NCBI GenBank assembly: GCA_944324195.1
Contig: CALUVJ010000002.1
Coordinates: 1-56,913, forward strand
DNA length: 56,913 bases
Reading direction: 5' to 3'
Source: Candidatus Gastranaerophilales bacterium
GTDB lineage: Bacteria; Cyanobacteriota; Vampirovibrionia; Gastranaerophilales; Gastranaerophilaceae
Shown here: one piece after another, positions 2,391 through 55,526 of the stretch
Layout of the letters: the number at the start of each line of letters is the position of its first letter
Numbering within the stretch: the first letter of the stretch is position 1
The notes under the pieces: model-generated
The model's input: the letters and a program-made list of their open reading frames with translations, nothing else
Told to the model about the DNA's origin: nothing
The model's database searches: none
Translations under genes and position numbers: made by a program

Positions 2391-3275
2391 ATGGCAATAA
2401 CAATTAACACAAACATTTCATCCCTCATCGTTCAGTCAAACTTGAACAAAGCGACAAATTCATTGAATCAGGCAATTGAGAGAATGACTACCGGCTACAA
2501 GATTAATCACGCAGCCGATAACGCAGCAGGTTATTCAATTGCAACAAACTGGGAAACTCAGTTGGGTTCATTGGATGTAGCAGCCGACAACGCAGCAACA
2601 GGTGCTGACATGTTAACAACCTTGGAAGATACTTATTCATTGGTATCATCCCACTTACAACGTGTAAGAGATTTGACAGAACAAGCTGCAAACGGAACTT
2701 ACGGTTCTGACTCATTAAAAGCAATTCAGTCTGAAATTACCGCAAGACTTGAAGAAATTGATCGTATTGCTGCTAACTGTGAATTTAACGGACTTCACAT
2801 GATGGATGGCACAATGGGAACAATTTCACTGCAAGTTGGTTTGTATAGTGATACTTCAAGCCAGATTGCACTTGATGAATCATTATTCAAAGAAGGAGAT
2901 GTTGCATCATTATTTACTGAATACGGTGACACTCCGGACGCTACAATTGAAGAAGTTGCACAGCTATGTTCCGGATATGACGGCACACAGATTACCGGCG
3001 GTCAAGCAGACATGTTGGATAAAATTGATAAAGTTATAAATGAAATTTCTGCAAGAACAACAACATTAGGTGCTGCTCAAAACAGAATAGATTCCGCAAT
3101 TGAATCAATTGCAGTTCAGTCTGAAAATATAACATCTTCTTTATCAACATTAAGAGATGCAGACGTAGCGGAAGAATCTTCAAATTATATACAAGCACAA
3201 ATCTTACAACAGGCTTCAGCAACATTACTTGCTACGGCAAACCAAACTCCAAGTATTGCCCTGAACTTGTTATAA
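2391..3275 (+). CDS. fliC: Flagellin (paralogue 1)
   Basis: Flagellar filament subunit, 294 aa, exported through the flagellar type III apparatus. The conserved D0/D1 N-terminal region (residues 1-140, starting MAITINTNISSL) and C-terminal region (about 210-294, ending in a NQTPSIALNLL tail) are complete. The hypervariable middle is only about 70 residues, so no large D2/D3 domain is present. AAAGGAG precedes the ATG. The D1 segment LQRVRDL and the later QSEIT match the part of enterobacterial flagellin seen by TLR5. It faces the sigma factor gene across a shared terminator. Its termini are nearly identical in protein to those of flagellin 2 (40599-41492). I see no clear sigma-28 promoter. 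Confidence 0.95.
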   Translation: MAITINTNISSLIVQSNLNKATNSLNQAIERMTTGYKINHAADNAAGYSIATNWETQLGSLDVAADNAATGADMLTTLEDTYSLVSSHLQRVRDLTEQAANGTYGSDSLKAIQSEITARLEEIDRIAANCEFNGLHMMDGTMGTISLQVGLYSDTSSQIALDESLFKEGDVASLFTEYGDTPDATIEEVAQLCSGYDGTQITGGQADMLDKIDKVINEISARTTTLGAAQNRIDSAIESIAVQSENITSSLSTLRDADVAEESSNYIQAQILQQASATLLATANQTPSIALNLL

Positions 3276-3372: not shown

Positions 3373-4071
3373 TTAATAATCTGTCCGCCCTTTAGTTTTT
3401 AAATATTCTCTGATTTGATTGAGCGAAAATTGAATAATTCTTGTTATTCTTGAAGGAGAAAGCCCAACCATTGTTGCAATATCTTTAGCCTGCATATTTC
3501 TGTAGAAACGATATTCAACAACAGTTCGCTCTTTTTGAGGCAGCCTGGCAATTGCCTGCTTTATTAACCGGCTCATCTCAACAATTTCAGCTTTCTCATC
3601 AGGCATTGCAGAAGGATCTTTGATAAAATCAAAAGGAGATGCGTTATCGGTTGCGGCAGCAGCAAGTCCGTCAATGGACAAAATGGTTTCATAAACCGCT
3701 TCCCGAACTTTTGTTGGTGAAATGGCAAATCCCATATCTTCAGAAGAGCCTTCATCGCCTGCTGCGACAGTATCGGAAACATAGCTGATATCTTCGCTGT
3801 CTTCTTCTTTTTTATGTTTAAGAGTATACCATTTATAGCGGTGTCTTAATTCATTACGTATAGCCCACTTAACGGCAGTTCCTATATAAGCGTCATTGTA
3901 TCGGGCCAATTGTTCTTCTGTCTTACCTTTAATCAAAGTTTGCACGGCTATAACACCTATACTAACCAATTCCTCATATTCAATCATATGGTTAGGTATA
4001 CGTCGTTGCTCTACTCTCGCTATTTTTTGTACAATACCGATATATTGTTTGATTAAAGTTTTATTATCCAT
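3373..4071 (-). CDS. RNA polymerase sigma factor, FliA/sigma-28-like
   Basis: A 232-aa sigma-70 family factor. Seen: a region-2-like block (YNDAYIGTAVKWAIRNELRHRY, about residues 59-80) and a region-4 helix-turn-helix near the C terminus (LPQKERTVVEYRFY followed by KDIATMVGLSPSRITRII). Size and architecture (no region 1.1) match the FliA/WhiG/SigB group. It lies 70 bases downstream of flhB and next to a flagellin, so control of late flagellar genes is the likely role, by context. A general alternative sigma cannot be excluded because I could not find matching sigma-28 boxes before the flagellin genes. Confidence 0.8.
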   Translation of the reverse strand: MDNKTLIKQYIGIVQKIARVEQRRIPNHMIEYEELVSIGVIAVQTLIKGKTEEQLARYNDAYIGTAVKWAIRNELRHRYKWYTLKHKKEEDSEDISYVSDTVAAGDEGSSEDMGFAISPTKVREAVYETILSIDGLAAAATDNASPFDFIKDPSAMPDEKAEIVEMSRLIKQAIARLPQKERTVVEYRFYRNMQAKDIATMVGLSPSRITRIIQFSLNQIREYLKTKGRTDY

Positions 4072-4141: not shown

Positions 4142-5209
4142 TTAAATCTGCTGGTTCTTATTTTTCAAACCGTATACAAATAACAGGATTTCTGCAACGG
4201 CTTTGTATAATTCCGGCGGAATTTCTTGATTTAAATCCACCATTCTAAAAAGAGCTCTTGCAACTGGTGCGTTATCAATTACCGGGACGTTATGCTGAAT
4301 GGCAATATCAATAATTTTTTTAGCAATAAGTTCTGTTCCTTTAGCCGTAAGTGTAGGTGATTGCATAGTCTCTGCATCATATTTAAGAGCACAAGCAACG
4401 TGGGTAGGGTTTCTGACTACAAAATCCGCTTCGGGAACGGAATCCATTGCACCCTGCTGCAGCATTTGCATACGCCTTTGCCTTAATGCTGCTTTGACGT
4501 GCGGGTCTCCTTCCGAGTTTTTATATTCGTCTTTTATTTCTTTAAAAGACATTTTCTGGTCTTTTAAAAATTTCCATTTTGTAACGCCGTAGTCAGCTGC
4601 TGCAATTATTAAGAAAGCAATACACGCTTTGTAAATAAATTCAACAATTAATTTCCCGAATTCAATCATTACAGCAAAGTTGTTATCTATTGATGCAAGC
4701 ATAAGAATGCTTTCAAGGTGGTCTCTGTATACGCTCCAACCTACCAGTCCGAGGATTGTAACCTTTAAGATGTTTTTACCGAGTTCAAATAATGTTTTTA
4801 CCTGAAACAAGTTTTTAAAATATTTTGTAGGATTAAGTTTATCCAACTTCGGAACTAACGGCGCGGTTGCGACAAGCGGACCGACTTGAATGAAATCCCC
4901 AATTATGGAGACAAAAGCTGCAACAATTAATATTGAACCGATTATTGCAACAGTCGGAATTAAAGTAACAGTCAATATGTATGGATATCCGATATTTGAC
5001 AGATGCTGATTGGGAATTTGTTCATATAAAGCTCCAAACAGCCCTACAATGAGTTTCCATATAATTGGAGCCAGCATATTGATAAATGTGAACATTACCA
5101 ACAAAGACAGTGCTACCGACACGTCTTTTGATTTAACAACCTGCCCTTCTTTTCTTGCTCTTTCTAATTTCTGGGGCGTGGCATCAAATTGTTTATCTTC
5201 ATCACCCAT
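4142..5209 (-). CDS. flhB: Flagellar export switch protein FlhB
   Basis: Inner-membrane component of the flagellar type III export gate that switches substrate specificity from hook to filament. Full length at 355 aa. Seen: N-terminal DATPQKLERARKEGQV, four hydrophobic membrane spans over residues 30-220, then a cytoplasmic domain with the autocleavage motif NPTH at residues 267-270. Cleavage falls between the Asn and Pro of this motif in the family. The position matches the E. coli protein to within two residues. It probably forms an operon with the downstream sigma gene. The presence of flagellins and fliI in the window makes an injectisome homologue unlikely. Confidence 0.95.
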   Translation of the reverse strand: MGDEDKQFDATPQKLERARKEGQVVKSKDVSVALSLLVMFTFINMLAPIIWKLIVGLFGALYEQIPNQHLSNIGYPYILTVTLIPTVAIIGSILIVAAFVSIIGDFIQVGPLVATAPLVPKLDKLNPTKYFKNLFQVKTLFELGKNILKVTILGLVGWSVYRDHLESILMLASIDNNFAVMIEFGKLIVEFIYKACIAFLIIAAADYGVTKWKFLKDQKMSFKEIKDEYKNSEGDPHVKAALRQRRMQMLQQGAMDSVPEADFVVRNPTHVACALKYDAETMQSPTLTAKGTELIAKKIIDIAIQHNVPVIDNAPVARALFRMVDLNQEIPPELYKAVAEILLFVYGLKNKNQQI

Positions 5210-14375: not shown

Positions 14376-17300
14376 GTGTTTGTAAATAAAATTAACGGTG
14401 TATCTAATATTGGATTCAAGGCTTATCAGCATGTTAAAAATGATGTCGGCGAAACAGTTATGAGGTTTAATTACCCTTATGACTATGAAAAGGAAAGCTG
14501 TGAGATACAGATATTCAGTGCAAAGCCGAATGAAAAATACAATTATCAACTTTCTGAAAAACCTGTTGCCGTTATTTATCTGAAACCGGAAGGGGTTAAT
14601 GTTAACCTGCAAGAAATTACAAACCTTGATAGAGATGAAGCTTTTGCATATAAAGTGGTAAGAAAAGATAAATCTACCGGAAAAGTTATTTGGGAAGGTG
14701 CTGATACCGGTATGAAAATAAAAAATGAAAACGGAGAATATGTTTTCAGAGTAATGAGCGGGCAGGGTATCAAAGAAGTAACCGATAGTGACGGAAAAGT
14801 TACTCATGAAGAGGATTTCAACGATTCCGTTAACAATTATCAATATACTCTTGTATCAAGAAAAGGTACAACACCGATGGTTCAAGGAGCCGGGTATTTG
14901 ATTACCCCGGATTCATTGATGCCGGGTGCAAAATTTAAAGATTTTAATGACGCAAGAACCGGCGGAATATATTATGACAAAGATTTTCAAAAAGAAATGG
15001 AAGGTGTAATAAAGAATTTTTCTAATGTTCATGGAGGCAGCATCGCAGGTGCCCAGAAAATTATACCTTACCTGAAAGAAAACGGTTACAAATATGTTTT
15101 CTCAACTCCAATGGCAAATGGTTCAAAAGCGTGGTCATTGGGTTACTGGAACAAAAATAATATGCAGGTTTCCCCAAATATAGGAAATACTGAAAACTTT
15201 GCTTCTTATTTCCGTGAATTGTACAAAAACGGCTTAAAATACGTTTACGACGGAACATTTACTTCAGAAGGTCTGGAAGGAATTCACTTCCAGTATGCTT
15301 TAAGATGGGCTCAGAGAAATCCTCAAACATATTACTGGTTTAGAATGACAGGTTTGAAAAATTCTAATCTGGGTTTAGGCACTGTTCCAAAGAATAAAGA
15401 AAACTTACGTCACAGAATTGTAAATGCACCATATAATTATGAGCTTCAGGCGGACGGTACTTACAAAAAGGTGGCAAACCCTCGTTATAATTCTCAAAAA
15501 GAAACTTTATTCCAGATTTATGATGCATCTCAGGCAAGTGACAGACAAATTCAAGATTTAGATAATGCTATTATTAATTATGAAAAGCTAACTGAAGGTA
15601 AAGCTCTGGATATTAACAATCATGACGATACGATTATTAACTTTATTTTCCAGATTAATCCAAAAGAATACGATAACAGGATTAAAGTTATAAATGAGCT
15701 TAATAAAAAATTCGGCAAGAATATAAATCTGGATACTGCAGACGGAACAATAATGGCAGCTCAATTTTCGAATTTCAAAATAGATAAGAAAAATGAGGGC
15801 GGTTTTGTAACTTGGGATGCAAACACGGATATGGCCAAAATGAATTATCATATTTCCGGCTATGATGAAAAAATTCTGCAGTCGATTGTAAGTCATTCTC
15901 AGAGAGAATACGAGAGAATGCTGACTGAACGCGGTTCAAAAGAGGTTCAGGATATGACTGTTCAAGCAGGCAAATATTGGACAGGAAAAGTTAAAAATAT
16001 ACAAACGATGTATACGGCTAAAACCATAGGTACAGCTAAGTCTGTTGAAGCAATTGAGAATCTCATTAAAGACGGGAAATTGCCGGAAGAAGCACGATTA
16101 GACAGCGCAACTTTAACAAATATTATTAACGGACACTATCTTTTGAAACCTAAGGGGGTTCTTGCAAAGGATGATGTCACTATCAAAGCATTGATGAATT
16201 TACCGCTGGATACTCTTGAGTTGGGTGAAAATACGGTTGGGGTCCTTTCTACTTCTTATTTCTCAAATAGAGCAACAACGGATGATACAATTGGCGTATC
16301 AAGGTTTGATTTGATGAAACAAAACAATCCTCACCTTGTAGAACCTTATACAAAAATTTATAACAAGGTAAACAGTCTGTTTAATAATGAACTTAAAGAC
16401 TTTGCAGATGCTGTAATTAAGAAAGCAAATGAAACTGCCAATGAAAAACTTTTAGATAATTCCGGTGATTATACGGAATACGGCGAATATGTAATGGAAC
16501 TCGTCGGACAGGATATTGCAAAATATGCTTTCTTAAAGGCACTGGGCGGTGAAAGTTTTAAAACAAAAATTTTGCCTTCCGGCGAAATGACATATGATTA
16601 CGCTGCCTTAAGAGACGGCACAACATTAAAAGGTCTGGGCATAAATGGTTACAGTCCGGAAGATGAAGCTTCCAAGCTTGAAAAGAAAATGGAAAAGGGG
16701 TTAGCATCACTTTCAGAGAGCGACATTGCTTACGTAGCAGAATCAGTTTCCCAAAGAATTGCCGGAACGGATACTTCAAGTTTCAGAATTGCAGAAGCTC
16801 TTGTTGATAGAACCGGCTTAGGTCTGGATTGGAGACTGGATGCGGCAAAAGATGTTATGGATATGGATGCGGTTCGTAATGAAGATGATGCTTTTGATGA
16901 CAATTGGGATGATGCAATAAAATTCTGGGCAAGATTTGTTCAGGCAGTTAAATCTGAAAACCCGAATGCATATGTAGTTGCTGAAATTACAGATATTCCG
17001 GATTTAATGGCAGATACTTACGGGCTGGACTCTTGTCCTTATGATGGTTTAACAAATATTGGGCAAAAATTTAACGGTGAACCGGATGCGTTTGCAAAAT
17101 TCTTTAATGAAACCGGTATAACCTCGGAAGCAGGATATTCATATTTCTTTACAGATTTGTTAACAAACTTTGCTCCGTCTTTTGATGAAGGCAATGGTTT
17201 GAGTGAAAGCCATGACAGATACGTTCCTCGATTTGAGCTCTTGATGCAGACAAGAAGTGCAGATTATTTGAGAAATTTGTATACTTTTATGGGAAACCAC

Positions 17301-19214
17301 GATAAACCGAGAACGCTTCACGGACTTGCCGTAGATATGGAATTATTCCATTCTAATCTTTTGAATGATTACAAAGATTTCTCTCAAAACCATAAATACA
17401 GACAGGATGCAATAAGAGTTCTTTCAGGTGCTAAGTCTGATGCGGATATTCCTATAGAACTCAGGTTAAATGTTGACAATAACAACTACTTTTTAACAGT
17501 AAGCCCGAGAGCAATTGCAAACGGTAAGCTTTTGATTCCTGTAATTTATGAAGATAAAACACTTTCTGATGAAGATAAAAAATCTCTCGTTGATGCAATT
17601 ATAGATTTAACATACGGCAATTATCTCGGTGAGGGTGCAACAGAGAATATGCAAAAAATCAGAATCAAAGAAATTTCATCACTTAACAATGCTTTTGATG
17701 AAGTTCTTTACCTTGCTGAAAATAACGGTTTGAAGCTTTCAGCAGATGAAAAAGCAAAGTTAAAAGAAGCTGTTGTAAAGCAAGCAAATGCAGCGGATTT
17801 GTCCGGTTACCTTGTTCATGGTGATTTTGACTGGCAGGATATTCCGGCAAACATTAAAAGCAAAAATGAAAAAGCTGCAGCGGAAATTGTCGGAAATCAA
17901 CCGAATTATTCCGGCTATAGTCTGTATATAATCCAGCTTGCACGACTTTTGAAAGATTCTTATGAAAAAACCGGGCTTAATGTAAGTGCAAAAGAACAAT
18001 TAGATAAAGCATTCAAAGATTTTGCGGAAAAATATAATAAAGATACTATAGTTTCTCATACAGAAGATTTTAATAAAATTGAAGATCCAGTAACTGCTAT
18101 GAGAAAGAACGGTTATGCTGCAAGAGATTTAAAAGTTGCTATTGATATGGCATTTAAGCAGGCAGAGTACAAGTCAGGTAAAACAATTGCCAATAAGAAA
18201 GATTCAATAGACAGACTTTATCAAAGCGCTACGGAACCGGCAGTCGCAAAAGAAGCAATGCTTATGGAATTTTTGAAAGCTCTTCCGGGTATTCCGACTG
18301 TTTATTCAGGTGATGAGTTTGGTATGACCGGTTATGAAGAAAAAGCTAAAAACGTTTATTTACAAAACAGAAATGTTTTGCCTTGGACAGAATTAGATGA
18401 AGATTCAGTAATCGGGAATTACAGAAGAGCGGTAAGAGATGCAATAAACGGAACGTTAAAAGACAGATCTAATCCTGAACTTTCGCCATTGAATAACGGT
18501 ACGCCTTATCCTCTGGAGGTTGCGGCAAATTCTAAAACAAGAAGTGAAATAAAATATAGAATAAATCAGATTAATGGTGAATTCGGAGAAATTGATAAAA
18601 AACAAGGCGATGGACAAATTACTAAACAAGAAGCTGACAAGCAAAAATCAGCTTTAAGTGAAGAGCGCAGAAAACTCACTAAGGACCTTGCAAAATATGC
18701 TTATCTTATGCAGAATGCCAACGGTGACGTAACGATTTCTATTATGAATGCAGGTGATGTTAATTTCTCTAACAGATTTAATTACTTCAAAGAATACGGT
18801 CTTGATACTGAAGAAAAGCGCAAAAAGTTCATGCAAGAAAATAACATAGAATCCATAAATCCGGACAATCCGTATGTTCCGATTTTACCAAAATCAGAGC
18901 TGGATATGATATTATTAGGAGCAGGGATTGCGCTTCCGGTCGGAACGGTATTTATGAATGCCAATGCTAAAGATAAGACTGAATATGTTGTAAAAGAAGT
19001 CGGAAGCAAGAAAGCAATCGTAAGAAAAGATGGCGGCAAAATTGTAATGGATGGTATGACTGCGAAAAACGGTGTTATGATATTGAAGAAGATTAAGAAT
19101 ATAATATTTAAGGGGCATCAGAATAAATATTCTCAATATAATTTTGTGTCAAATCCTTACAAGCACAGTGAGCCGGCAGTAGAGGGACAAAATTTGTCCA
19201 TAATTTCAAAATAA
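14376..19214 (+). CDS. Giant GH13 (alpha-amylase family) glycosidase
   Basis: A 1612-aa protein with a GH13 catalytic core. Start is GTG, with AAGGAG 9 bases upstream. Seen: N-terminal FKA motif (residues 12-16, IGFKA), a beta-rich amylase N-domain, nucleophile Asp822 in LDWRLDAAKD, acid/base Glu870 in VVAEITD, transition-state Asp976 in GNHDKPR, and GIPTVYSGDEFG at 1305. About 270 extra, mostly helical, residues lie between Asp976 and that motif, and some 800 residues precede the nucleophile. A hydrophobic segment (about 1510-1528) and a second motif, IIFKG, occur near the C terminus. No signal peptide, so an intracellular or membrane-attached alpha-glucan enzyme is inferred. The next gene, an AAA+ ATPase, begins 16 bases later. 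It could be a glucan hydrolase or a transferase. Confidence 0.88.
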   Translation: MFVNKINGVSNIGFKAYQHVKNDVGETVMRFNYPYDYEKESCEIQIFSAKPNEKYNYQLSEKPVAVIYLKPEGVNVNLQEITNLDRDEAFAYKVVRKDKSTGKVIWEGADTGMKIKNENGEYVFRVMSGQGIKEVTDSDGKVTHEEDFNDSVNNYQYTLVSRKGTTPMVQGAGYLITPDSLMPGAKFKDFNDARTGGIYYDKDFQKEMEGVIKNFSNVHGGSIAGAQKIIPYLKENGYKYVFSTPMANGSKAWSLGYWNKNNMQVSPNIGNTENFASYFRELYKNGLKYVYDGTFTSEGLEGIHFQYALRWAQRNPQTYYWFRMTGLKNSNLGLGTVPKNKENLRHRIVNAPYNYELQADGTYKKVANPRYNSQKETLFQIYDASQASDRQIQDLDNAIINYEKLTEGKALDINNHDDTIINFIFQINPKEYDNRIKVINELNKKFGKNINLDTADGTIMAAQFSNFKIDKKNEGGFVTWDANTDMAKMNYHISGYDEKILQSIVSHSQREYERMLTERGSKEVQDMTVQAGKYWTGKVKNIQTMYTAKTIGTAKSVEAIENLIKDGKLPEEARLDSATLTNIINGHYLLKPKGVLAKDDVTIKALMNLPLDTLELGENTVGVLSTSYFSNRATTDDTIGVSRFDLMKQNNPHLVEPYTKIYNKVNSLFNNELKDFADAVIKKANETANEKLLDNSGDYTEYGEYVMELVGQDIAKYAFLKALGGESFKTKILPSGEMTYDYAALRDGTTLKGLGINGYSPEDEASKLEKKMEKGLASLSESDIAYVAESVSQRIAGTDTSSFRIAEALVDRTGLGLDWRLDAAKDVMDMDAVRNEDDAFDDNWDDAIKFWARFVQAVKSENPNAYVVAEITDIPDLMADTYGLDSCPYDGLTNIGQKFNGEPDAFAKFFNETGITSEAGYSYFFTDLLTNFAPSFDEGNGLSESHDRYVPRFELLMQTRSADYLRNLYTFMGNHDKPRTLHGLAVDMELFHSNLLNDYKDFSQNHKYRQDAIRVLSGAKSDADIPIELRLNVDNNNYFLTVSPRAIANGKLLIPVIYEDKTLSDEDKKSLVDAIIDLTYGNYLGEGATENMQKIRIKEISSLNNAFDEVLYLAENNGLKLSADEKAKLKEAVVKQANAADLSGYLVHGDFDWQDIPANIKSKNEKAAAEIVGNQPNYSGYSLYIIQLARLLKDSYEKTGLNVSAKEQLDKAFKDFAEKYNKDTIVSHTEDFNKIEDPVTAMRKNGYAARDLKVAIDMAFKQAEYKSGKTIANKKDSIDRLYQSATEPAVAKEAMLMEFLKALPGIPTVYSGDEFGMTGYEEKAKNVYLQNRNVLPWTELDEDSVIGNYRRAVRDAINGTLKDRSNPELSPLNNGTPYPLEVAANSKTRSEIKYRINQINGEFGEIDKKQGDGQITKQEADKQKSALSEERRKLTKDLAKYAYLMQNANGDVTISIMNAGDVNFSNRFNYFKEYGLDTEEKRKKFMQENNIESINPDNPYVPILPKSELDMILLGAGIALPVGTVFMNANAKDKTEYVVKEVGSKKAIVRKDGGKIVMDGMTAKNGVMILKKIKNIIFKGHQNKYSQYNFVSNPYKHSEPAVEGQNLSIISK

Positions 19215-19230: not shown

Positions 19231-20691
19231 ATGAGAGTCGGTGCAGTAGGTATAAACTGCGGTTATTATAGTAAAAGCCGGAATATAAAACAGTATAGAA
19301 ATAATTTGATAAACAAAACTGATACAGTGTCTTTTAGGGGGCTATTCAGTTCCGGGCCGGATTTGTCAACACGGTTTGCATATGGGCTGGAAGCATTGGA
19401 CGGACAATCTGTTCTGGTTGTAACCTCCAATGAAGAAAGTTCTAATATGATGCTTGAACTTTATGCGGATAAAATTGACATTCCGGTGATGAAAAAATAT
19501 ACTCTGCTTGTAAAGCCGGGAGAGTTGAAAAACCGCGACGATTTGAGTGCAAATTTTGCTATATTTAAAAAAGATAAAGATTATAATATTCTCTCTCTTG
19601 CGGATAATCCTATCATAGGAATACAAGTTGCAAATCCAAAAGACGAATTTAATGAAAAAAACCGGATTTTTTCCGGAGAGAAAAAAGTTCTAATAGACGG
19701 TGTTGCTATAGATACAGGTGAATTATTTTATTCGGAAAAACCAAAGTTTGTATTTAATACTCCGAAAAATTACTATGCAGATAGTGCAAAAAGATATTTG
19801 ACCCTAAATACCGTAAATGAGTTTAAGGACTTCAACAAAAGAACGATTTCAGCTCTGAACTCTTCTAAGAAAGTTGAGCCCAAAACAGGATTTAGATTTA
19901 GTGATATTGGCGGTTTGGATAGTGTAATAGAGACCCTGAAAAAATATGTAGTAAGACCTATTAATTATCCGCAGGTGTTTGAAAATATAAGATTAAATAA
20001 GGGGATTCTTTTGTGGGGGCCGCCGAGGTGCGGGAAAACTCTTCTTGGTAAAGCTTTAGCTAATGAAACCGGAGCAAAATACAGCGAATATAATGCAAAT
20101 GAATTTAAATCATCAACGCTCGGCTCTTCAGAAGCTTCTATACGTGAGATGTTTAAAAAAGCTGTTGCGAACGCTCCTTCGATAACATTTATTGATGAAA
20201 TTGATTCTATTGCAAAGAAGCGTGACGGCTCTTCCAATTCCAGATTTGATGATCCGATGGTGAACCAGCTTTTGGGCTGCATGAGCGATTTAGAAAAAAC
20301 TAAAACTCCGGCATTTATTATTGCAGCCACAAACAGAAAGGATTTACTGGATCCGGCTCTTGTTGCTTCCGGAAGATTCGGCTTGCATCTGGAAGTCCCT
20401 ATACCTGATGAGAAAGGGTTAAAACAAATTTTCAATATACATATAAAAGACAAGCCGGTTATGCAAAATGTATCAGTAGATGAACTTACGAGGATGATGT
20501 CGTTGCACAAATTTAACGGCTCTGATGTCGCAGAGGCAATCACAAATGCTTATTTTAACGCGCTTGAACGATTGAGCATGTTTGAAAAGATGGATAACAG
20601 AACCTTTACTTATGCTGATTTACAAAAAATTGCAATCAGTAAAGAGGATTTTCACTTAGCAATGCAAAAAATCGTCAGACAGAAGATTTAA
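19231..20691 (+). CDS. AAA+ ATPase (Cdc48/FtsH-like) with VSFRG motif
   Basis: A 486-aa AAA+ ATPase. The N-terminal 210 residues form a domain I do not recognise, with VSFRG at 33-37. The ATPase domain follows: Walker A GPPRCGKT (263-270, Lys269), Walker B ITFIDEIDS, sensor FIIAATNR, and SGRFGLHLEV with an arginine finger, all close to the Cdc48/PAN/FtsH group. The usual Walker A Gly-Thr is replaced by Arg-Cys, which is unusual but keeps GK[ST]. No transmembrane span or protease domain. Begins 16 bases after the giant GH13 gene, so likely the same transcript. Overlaps ldpA tail to tail by 17 bases. Confidence 0.85.
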   Translation: MRVGAVGINCGYYSKSRNIKQYRNNLINKTDTVSFRGLFSSGPDLSTRFAYGLEALDGQSVLVVTSNEESSNMMLELYADKIDIPVMKKYTLLVKPGELKNRDDLSANFAIFKKDKDYNILSLADNPIIGIQVANPKDEFNEKNRIFSGEKKVLIDGVAIDTGELFYSEKPKFVFNTPKNYYADSAKRYLTLNTVNEFKDFNKRTISALNSSKKVEPKTGFRFSDIGGLDSVIETLKKYVVRPINYPQVFENIRLNKGILLWGPPRCGKTLLGKALANETGAKYSEYNANEFKSSTLGSSEASIREMFKKAVANAPSITFIDEIDSIAKKRDGSSNSRFDDPMVNQLLGCMSDLEKTKTPAFIIAATNRKDLLDPALVASGRFGLHLEVPIPDEKGLKQIFNIHIKDKPVMQNVSVDELTRMMSLHKFNGSDVAEAITNAYFNALERLSMFEKMDNRTFTYADLQKIAISKEDFHLAMQKIVRQKI

Positions 20692-40598: not shown

Positions 40599-41492
40599 CT
40601 ATATTAAGTTCAAAGCTATACTAGGCAGCTGGTTAGCAGTTGCGAGCAATGTCGCGGATGCCTGCTGCAGAATTTGCGCCTGTATATAGTTTGAAGATTC
40701 TTCCGCTACGTCAGCATCTCTAAGTGTAGAAAGTGATGACGTTATATTTTCTGACTGTACGCTTATTGACTCAATTGCAGAGTCAATTCTGTTTTGCGCA
40801 GCACCGAGAGTGGTTGTTCTTGCGGAAATCTCATTTAAAACCTTATCAATTTCATCAAGCATAACTGCTTGATTGCCTACGATTTGCGAGGCATCAGAAT
40901 CATATCCGGAACATAGTTCCGCAATATCATCAACGGTTGCAACTGTTTGACCTGTATTTTCGTCAAACAAAGTAACCGTATCTGCCGGTGCAAAAAGAGT
41001 TTGGCTCAGTACGATTTGGCTGTTTACATCACTGTATAAACCGACTTGCAGTGCAATATCTTCTGCTACATCACCGTTCATCATGTTTATACCGTTAAAT
41101 TCACAATTTGCAGCAATACGATCAATTTCTTCTAACCTTGCGGTAATTTCTGATTTAATTGCTTTCAACGAATCAGAGCCGTAAGTTCCGTTTGCAGCTT
41201 GCTCTGTTAAATCTCGTACACGCTGAAGGTGCGAAGATATAAGAGAGTAAGTATCTTCTAATGTCGTAAGCATGTCTGCTCCGGTAGCTGCATTGTCAGC
41301 TGCAACATCTAAAGAGCCTAGTTGCGTTTCCCAATTTGTGGAAATAGAATAACCTGCAGCATTATCAGCAGCATGATTTATTTTATAACCGGTAGTCATC
41401 CTCTCAATTGCTTGATTTAAACTGTTTGTTGCAGCATTGAGGTTTCTTTGTACAATCAAAGACGAAATGTTTGTATTAATTGTAAGAGCCAT
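40599..41492 (-). CDS. fliC: Flagellin (paralogue 2)
   Basis: A 297-aa flagellin with D0/D1 halves nearly identical in protein to flagellin 1, differing mostly in the short middle (about residues 140-205). At the nucleotide level the third codon positions of the two genes differ widely, so this is an old duplication kept by selection. Ribosome site AAAGG about 10 bases before ATG. Upstream (41493-41640) there are two short hairpins (GTGC/GCAC and a GCAAATAA-type inverted repeat) but no clear sigma-28 boxes. Confidence 0.95.
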   Translation of the reverse strand: MALTINTNISSLIVQRNLNAATNSLNQAIERMTTGYKINHAADNAAGYSISTNWETQLGSLDVAADNAATGADMLTTLEDTYSLISSHLQRVRDLTEQAANGTYGSDSLKAIKSEITARLEEIDRIAANCEFNGINMMNGDVAEDIALQVGLYSDVNSQIVLSQTLFAPADTVTLFDENTGQTVATVDDIAELCSGYDSDASQIVGNQAVMLDEIDKVLNEISARTTTLGAAQNRIDSAIESISVQSENITSSLSTLRDADVAEESSNYIQAQILQQASATLLATANQLPSIALNLI

Positions 41493-53694: not shown

Positions 53695-53722
53695 TTGACA
53701 AATTTTTTATATAGTATATAAT
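53695..53722 (+). promoter_or_regulatory. Near-consensus sigma-70 promoter of flagellin 3
   Basis: TTGACA (53695-53700), 16 bases, TATAAT (53717-53722), both perfect hexamers, 22 bases before the TTG start. Confidence 0.75.
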
Positions 53723-53744
53723 AAATATATAAGGATATGTTGAT

Positions 53745-55421
53745 TTGTCATTTTCGTTAAATACAAACTATTTAAGTAATTTAGTGCAAAAAAGCCTTGC
53801 CGATTCTACTGCGGGCTTAAATCTTGCTATAGAGCGTTTAACAAGCGGGTTTAAGATAAATCACGCAAAAGATAATGCAGCCGGATATTCGATTTCTACT
53901 AAGTATTCAAGCCAGCTTTCTTCGTATATGGTAGCACAGGATAATGCTGCTACAGGTTTAGATTTAGTAACGACGGCAAGTGACAGTTTAAGCCTTGTGT
54001 CATCTCATTTACAGCGTATGAGGGATTTGGCGGAACAAGCTTCCAACGGAACCTATTCCTCGCAATCACTTCAGGCGTTACAGGCGGAATTTAATCAACG
54101 CATGTATGAGATAGAACGTACAATGTCCAATACTGAGTACAACGGAGTAAAACTATTTAATGAATCAGGCAGCCGATTTATAGAAGATGTAGAGAGTTTA
54201 TCATATAATGAAGCCGTTGCGGAAGGGTATACCGTAATAACTTCTGCAGAAGATTTACAGGCTATGCAAGATAATCTCGCCGGAAAATATATTTTAATGG
54301 CAGATATTGATTTGGCCGGTGAGAATTGGACTCCTATAGGAGATATAAGAGATCCGTTTACGGGAGAGTTTAATGGCAATGGTTATACAATAAGTAATTT
54401 AACTCTGGATAATAATACCAGGGATTATTACGGATTTTTTGGAAGAGTTGAGGGGGCTGAAATTTCTAACGCAGGCTTTGAAAATGCAATTGTCAGAGGG
54501 AAAATGTGGGTAGGAATTTTAGCCGGATACAGTTATAATACAAGTATATCAAATTGTTATATAACAGGAAGTGTTTCTGGGTATAGCGATGTAGGAGCTC
54601 TTGTGGGCGATAATATACACGGCTCTTCCATAGACAGTTGTTATTCAATTGCTGATGTAACAGGAACCCGTTACCGAGTGGGCGGACTTGTAGGGTATAA
54701 TAACGACAATTCATCCATAAATTACAGTTATGCACAAAGCAGTGTGAACGGAGACTTAAATGTAGGCGGCTTGGTCGGGCAAAACACTTCAAGTACGGTT
54801 TCAAATTCTTTTTCAGAAGGCGATATCTCCGGGAATTCTCAGATTGGAGCTTTTGCAGGTTTTAATGAAAACGGAACAATATCTTCCTGTTATTGGAACA
54901 ATCAAATCTCTCAAACACTTCCTGGTATTGCACAAGGAACTGATACCGGAGCCTCAGGAGCTACTTCGGCAGAGATAGAAGAACAAAAATTTGAAAAGAA
55001 TTTACCGGGCTACAACGTAATGCTAGAAGAGGAAGAAACTGAAATTTATTTTCAGGTGGGAATATACAGTGCGGATTCTTCAAAAATTTCAATAAATACC
55101 GAATTTAATATGCGTTTGTCAGCCCTGAATATCTCTACCTCCGATGCTGCAAGAAAAACTTTGGCCAAATTGGATAATCTGCTTTCAATTGTAAGCTCTA
55201 AACAGACTGAATATGGTGCTGCATACAATAGAATGGAATCTGCAATAGAGAGTATAGGTGTAAGCATCAATAATTTAACATCCTCCTTATCAACTTTACG
55301 CGATGCTGATATATCGGAGGTTTCAAGCGATTATATAAAAAATCAAATTTTACAACAGGCTTCTTCTACATTGCTGGCTACAGCAAATCAAACACCTGCA
55401 ATGGCATTACAGTTAATATAA
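53745..55421 (+). CDS. Flagellin with GLUG-repeat insert (paralogue 3)
   Basis: A 558-aa flagellin-like protein. Residues 1-140 are a D0/D1 N-terminal half (AIERLTSGFKINHAKDNAAGYSI, LQRMRDLAEQASNGT), and 430-558 the C-terminal half ending NQTPAMALQLI. The middle (about 150-420) carries at least five GLUG-like repeats (VGGLVG, VGALVG, FAGF type) with N/S/T-rich turns, the motif family seen in adhesin and IgA-peptidase surface proteins. The open frame is continuous. TTG start, AAGGA 9 bases upstream. The near-consensus promoter suggests independent expression from the other flagellins. It could be a minor filament or surface adhesin subunit. Confidence 0.9.
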   Translation: MSFSLNTNYLSNLVQKSLADSTAGLNLAIERLTSGFKINHAKDNAAGYSISTKYSSQLSSYMVAQDNAATGLDLVTTASDSLSLVSSHLQRMRDLAEQASNGTYSSQSLQALQAEFNQRMYEIERTMSNTEYNGVKLFNESGSRFIEDVESLSYNEAVAEGYTVITSAEDLQAMQDNLAGKYILMADIDLAGENWTPIGDIRDPFTGEFNGNGYTISNLTLDNNTRDYYGFFGRVEGAEISNAGFENAIVRGKMWVGILAGYSYNTSISNCYITGSVSGYSDVGALVGDNIHGSSIDSCYSIADVTGTRYRVGGLVGYNNDNSSINYSYAQSSVNGDLNVGGLVGQNTSSTVSNSFSEGDISGNSQIGAFAGFNENGTISSCYWNNQISQTLPGIAQGTDTGASGATSAEIEEQKFEKNLPGYNVMLEEEETEIYFQVGIYSADSSKISINTEFNMRLSALNISTSDAARKTLAKLDNLLSIVSSKQTEYGAAYNRMESAIESIGVSINNLTSSLSTLRDADISEVSSDYIKNQILQQASSTLLATANQTPAMALQLI

Positions 55422-55497: not shown

Positions 55498-55526
55498 GAA
55501 AGAATGTGTTCAGCACATTCTTTTTA
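55498..55526 (+). terminator. Flagellin 3 terminator
   Basis: AAAGAATGTG and CACATTCTTT around a 5-base loop with T-run. Confidence 0.85.

Follow-up and report, generated by a model that had tools for sequence, protein, structure and literature searches.

A Gastranaerophilales flagellin with a GLUG beta-helix insert, and related modules in giant FliD caps

The gene at positions 53745–55421 on the forward strand encodes a flagellin of 558 amino acids (P0001) in a single intact open frame. It lies in a window of 56,913 nucleotides, the whole stretch of DNA that was analysed, which is the entire contig C2 of a MAG that is 84% complete and split into 115 contigs. The genome belongs to the Gastranaerophilales, gut bacteria that are non-photosynthetic relatives of the cyanobacteria. 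The start codon is TTG, placed 8 nt downstream of a ribosome-binding site AAGGA (53732–53736, forward strand; TATATAAGGAT is kept upstream of the orthologues), and this start is backed by orthologues that carry GTG or TTG at the same position and by the promoter kept upstream in four of them. The promoter, TTGACA-N16-TATAAT at 53695–53722 on the same strand, is of the sigma-70 type and matches the consensus at 12 of 12 positions. Promoter-like sites in the region are as numerous as expected by chance, and we accept this one because it is kept: TTGACA-N16/17-TATAAT, with a spacing of 16–17 nt, precedes four of five orthologues (L047, L048, L049 and L021), and the same scan upstream of the fifth (L052, genome G062) found none. 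Downstream of the gene, a palindromic stem-loop of 10 pairs at 55499–55523, reported on the reverse strand, is a possible transcript end; terminator-like sites around the gene also occur at a number expected by chance.

The two ends of the protein, its domain order and its C-terminal end are those of a bacterial flagellin (FliC/Hag). The N-terminal D0/D1 part (residues 1–141, 53745–54167, forward strand as for all parts of the gene) matches Flagellin_N (PF00669) over residues 6–141 with an E-value of 3.6e-29, and the C-terminal D1/D0 part (residues 466–558, 55140–55418) matches Flagellin_C (PF00700) over residues 474–558 with an E-value of 8.3e-16, both above the curated cut-off, so that both of the regions by which a flagellin is recognised lie within one frame. 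Among NCBIfam models, flagellin scores 187 bits, far more than FlgL (71.5 bits, short of the FlgL cut-off of 127). Between the ends, GLUG (PF07581) matches five stretches, with a whole-protein E-value of 5.8e-16 and 58.2 bits (cut-off 20.5); two of the motifs, at 54672–54749 and 54756–54830, are significant singly in a genome-wide GLUG search. The earlier note on this DNA, written from the sequence alone, had described flagellin ends flanking a GLUG insert in one open frame at these coordinates and had proposed the PF07581 search; the profiles bear out both the architecture and the position. Its figure of about 270 residues fits the beta-helix proper, which has 265 (residues 159–423, 54219–55013), and falls short of the roughly 290 residues counted with the linkers. 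The N-terminal linker is residues 142–158 (54168–54218); on the other side of the insert, residues 424–465 (55014–55139) comprise the second linker and, displaced to this side, the D1 beta-hairpin FQVGIYSADSSKISIN. As far as architecture alone is concerned, we regard it as practically certain that P0001 is a genuine flagellin with a GLUG insert.

Orthologues in four other MAGs match P0001 over its whole length at 77, 73, 70 and 58% identity, and because of this full-length identity chance or a frameshift is excluded for P0001. The gene glmU upstream and rpmG downstream are kept in all four, as are secE and nusG where the contigs extend far enough. In L052 the frame is split into two pieces, a break or an assembly error in one of six genes. 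This split and the incompleteness of the MAG are what can be said for an assembly chimera or a decayed gene, an origin that is barely conceivable given that four independent MAGs have the frame open at this position, that 47 frames share the architecture and that dN/dS is low. A chimera or frameshift seen in other strains, which the earlier note had held would count against the gene, was thus ruled out by the intact orthologues and their kept neighbours. Comparison of P0001 with L047 gave NG86 dN values of 0.13 for the N-terminal core, 0.18 for the solenoid and 0.12 for the C-terminal core, with a saturated dS of 1.8–2.7; within the limits set by this saturation, the direction of divergence is purifying in all parts.

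An AlphaFold2 model built with an alignment of 18 relatives predicts the insert to be beta-rich and folded as a beta-helix, with pLDDT values of 87–97 in most 10-residue blocks. At both junctions the confidence falls below 50 (residues 132–134 and 136–142, and residues 424–431), so both linkers are probably flexible and the model does not set the orientation of the insert. Against solved flagellins, the D1 part of the model gives Z scores of about 17–19. The top solved match of the insert is 3n6z (Z 32.9, model residues 158–427), a putative IgA1 protease fragment from Bacteroides ovatus, followed by the beta-helix of M26 IgA1 proteases (Streptococcus pneumoniae 6xja, residues 776–1087, Z 28.2; 7uvk, Z 29.4). 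The beta-solenoid that had been expected from the repeats is therefore recovered by structure prediction, with Z scores of 28–33 to these proteins. The likeness extends to sequence, as a profile of the insert also retrieves 3n6z (E 3.1e-28); a single-sequence search for solved relatives of the insert found none, and only the profile and the fold comparison brought them out. At the DNA level the insert shows no evident slippage between coils: tandem arrays are absent, and its sole repeat is a pair of 22-nt copies at 77%.

Two matches could be taken to mean that the insert is an enzyme, either a protease of the M26 type or a polysaccharide lyase with a beta-helix fold: Peptidase_M26_N (PF05342) aligns with residues 164–275 (E 3.3e-5, 23.7 bits, below the cut-off of 27.7), and the fold resembles the capsule lyase 7w1c (Z 16.5, 8% identity). 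However, P0001 has no HExxH motif and only three histidines in its whole length, and its likeness in fold and sequence profile is to the non-catalytic NTD2 (6xja 776–1087); the middle and C-terminal catalytic domains of M26 IgA1 proteases are absent, and the beta-helix is carried by a flagellin instead. In those proteases NTD2 is a beta-helix gating domain that repositions upon IgA1 binding and has a part in substrate entry; it does not contain the zinc site (PMC9637739). Because the homology is to NTD2 without the zinc site and HExxH is lacking, the insert is the non-catalytic beta-helix of IgA1 proteases alone. The protease reading of the M26 match, which falls on the wrong domain, was ruled out, and an enzymatic insert of either kind is very improbable. 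Flagellinolysin (PMC5595980) resembles P0001 in bearing a functional domain in the hypervariable region of a flagellin, but it is a gluzincin HExxH protease, and its model (NF033876) gives P0001 33 bits (cut-off 205), over 39 residues (112–150) that lie outside the insert.

The insert is also placed differently from the outer domains of a typical flagellin. In four plain flagellins of the lineage, a D1 beta-hairpin with the pattern LQVGLYSD..S.I follows 10–20 aa after the N-terminal domain, whereas in all 37 GLUG flagellins in which the motif was recognised the same hairpin lies C-terminal to the solenoid. Where solved flagellins have outer domains, the hairpin falls at about residues 148–161, ahead of D2, according to the domain layout of Salmonella FliC, which we take as the reference. 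Since the hairpin precedes D2 there and follows the solenoid here, the GLUG domain enters at the turn before the D1 hairpin, and the Salmonella-type D2/D3 sits after it. P0001 thus carries a GLUG beta-helix in place of D2/D3, at an insertion point other than theirs, which would add another fold of the surface-binding type to those found on flagella.

Insertion of domains into flagellins is itself well documented. Among 26,587 flagellins surveyed in 2017, 61 domains were recorded in the hypervariable region and one protease flagellin was proven; Table 1 of that survey contains 17 flagellins with a 'Peptidase_M26' match, presented as possible proteases (PMC5595980). Because PF05342 matches the GLUG region of P0001 weakly, and the relative L022 above the cut-off, some of the 17 are probably GLUG flagellins of the same architecture rather than proteases, to judge by these profile matches. 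The earlier note knew of no described GLUG flagellin; our literature search, outside which most subscription journals lay, likewise returned none described as such, and the statement needs amending for those of the 17 that probably share the architecture. Related flagellins have probably been glimpsed before as 'Peptidase_M26' flagellins.

The same architecture recurs in related genomes, as the earlier note had suggested checking. Among the fetched loci, 47 frames combine a flagellin N-terminal domain, a solenoid and a flagellin C-terminal domain; within the genus, at least 24 of the 65 genomes contribute GLUG flagellin frames, as do five other genera of the family, and at least 40 of the 65 carry GLUG motifs, figures that are lower bounds, with a limited number of candidates taken per genome. 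The GLUG flagellin probably extends to another family of the order, where a frame of 602 aa aligns with residues 3–550 of P0001 at 33% identity. In roughly half of the genus, plain flagellins were detected and GLUG flagellins were not, and for this reason the trait is dispensable. In a tree of the D0/D1 core, a minimum of three switches between the plain and the GLUG state is counted, but the strongly supported branches force only one; a single origin of the insert may therefore be compatible with the tree, and multiple origins, considered on the same branches, were not retained. Two further frames differ in size. This genome encodes another GLUG flagellin (1514–5215 of L102, contig C51), which has intact N- and C-terminal flagellin ends and measures 1234 aa when counted from the likely ATG, and a 1481-aa frame from a Melainabacteria MAG (L070, 5992–10434) matches Flagellin_N and GLUG with no match to Flagellin_C. 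Giant flagellins of more than 1000 aa are known (PMC6248924), and share with the proteins considered here a very large, surface-exposed part of the flagellum.

The more surprising part of our findings is the presence of giant, GLUG-bearing FliD caps, which are encoded outside the window and lay beyond the view of the earlier note. Contig C4 of this genome holds a FliD frame of 6148 codons (710–19153 of L103), within which most of the other strong GLUG matches of the genome fall: FliD_N matches at the start (3.5e-14), GLUG inside (1.7e-35) and FliD_C at the end (2e-36). A normal FliD is encoded as well, in a frame of 590 codons, about ten times smaller. A profile of the flagellin insert finds 14 stretches in the 6148-aa protein and, at almost matching positions, 13 in a relative of 6137 codons (L138, genome G039). 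Frames with FliD_C reach at least 1000 aa in 45 of the 65 genomes of the genus and at least 3000 aa in 22. As the insert profile found no solenoid match in some giant FliDs (e.g. that of G035), not all of them are GLUG-built alike. A blastp self-comparison of the giant FliD gave no off-diagonal rows, and the profile search was used instead. We found no description of FliDs of thousands of residues in the same literature search, again with most subscription journals outside it. How a FliD of up to 6148 aa passes through the export channel and yet lets flagellin fold beneath the cap is a testable mechanical question.

In a tree of the modules, starred branches place the flagellin inserts of L030, L032 and L055 inside groups of FliD modules, which suggests, with moderate support (49 of the 105 inner branches are poorly supported), that modules have been exchanged between filament flagellin and FliD cap. 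Two further contigs of this genome with FliD_C and GLUG modules (L104 and L105, contigs C46 and C39) have frames that start or end at the contig ends in near-identical repeats (SVDENTTLGDLINLIKAEGGNASLDANGVLTVTGG), so their assembly is doubtful. In another genus, a frame of 11061 codons (L136 and L137, contig C5 of G126) contains solenoid modules and a weak FliD_C match (2.6e-8), with a start unlike that of FliD.

Taken together, on a modest balance of probability, P0001 is a paralogue of the filament flagellins that would display a binding or adhesion beta-helix. The flagellar apparatus would export the protein, whose normal D0/D1 ends would let it join the filament; the GLUG beta-helix, replacing D2/D3 on two flexible linkers, would face the medium in many copies and could bind a host glycoprotein, mucin, IgA, a gut polysaccharide or another cell. 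We infer assembly and adhesion alike, the latter because of the homology to IgA1-protease NTD2, the same modules in FliD and the gut lineage. The occurrence of these solenoid modules between FliD_N and FliD_C of the 6148-aa protein speaks for adhesion and recalls the tip-borne adhesion of Pseudomonas, where FliC and FliD bind mucins (PMC8306008); adhesion was also suggested for GLUG proteins of a gut archaeon, in a paper that calls the motif one of unknown function (PMC9723798). The proposal of the earlier note, a filament-displayed adhesin for mucus or host surfaces, is thus partly supported: the flagellin ends, the insert and its fold are confirmed, and an adhesive function with mucus or a host surface as target would be one way to read them. 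GLUG filament and GLUG-bearing cap together would make an adhesive flagellum. More tentatively, and as a possibility that we would stop short of calling probable, the Gastranaerophilales flagellum could be adhesive along its whole length, with GLUG flagellins studding the filament, giant FliD caps crowning the tip, modules exchanged between them and both diversifying together.

Against a binding role stands the fact that the beta-helix is also a frequent passive scaffold, and expression of P0001 from a non-AUG start and a one-gene transcript may be low; the split frame of L052 and the dispensability of the trait weigh on the same side. The insert could thus be an outer layer with no specific ligand, serving as spacer, stabiliser or variable coat, altering stiffness or hiding D1 from phages, IgA or TLR5. 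Outer flagellin domains are in general variable and often structural (PMC8306008), and among paralogues the insert varies in length and number of coils and diverges faster than the core (31–46% against 46–74% identity). Among orthologues, however, the solenoid lags little behind the core in conservation (67–75% against 76–82%), and the same module type at the filament tip would be needless for a coat; we consider a passive layer rather unlikely. Should the beta-helix of P0001 have IgA, mucin, or a plant or insect polymer as its ligand, this would give a handle on gut retention of uncultured bacteria, in a lineage that is widespread in the gut and whose interaction with the host is almost unknown.

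The promoter bears on whether P0001 belongs to the motility filament at all. The sigma-70-type site kept in the orthologues would place the gene outside the flagellar regulon, as an adhesive subunit of a separate, non-motility filament or as a minor subunit; the four plain flagellins examined yielded no such upstream site, and the window encodes a FliA/WhiG-like sigma factor. Yet the normal FliD has a near-consensus sigma-70-type site upstream, no sigma-28-like site was found for the four plain flagellin genes either, and the N-terminal domain of P0001 is 54–57% identical to those of plain flagellins, close enough to co-assemble. A separate filament is accordingly a distinctly improbable destination, compared with display on the flagellar filament.

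Flagellar genes are known in Gastranaerophilales (PMC5877343). This genome encodes FlhA and FliD, and FlhB and FliI lie within the window. Matches to the FlhA family occur three times (contigs C64, C38 and C108, with E-values of 6.5e-261, 2.0e-217 and 7.2e-47), which suggests either a second export apparatus or contamination. The window also encodes two plain flagellins, of 294 aa (2391–3275) and 297 aa (40599–41492), the former adjoining the sigma factor gene (3373–4071) and FlhB (4142–5209). Elsewhere in the window, positions 14376–19214 encode a 1612-aa protein with alpha-amylase matches, with an AAA ATPase downstream at 19231–20691.
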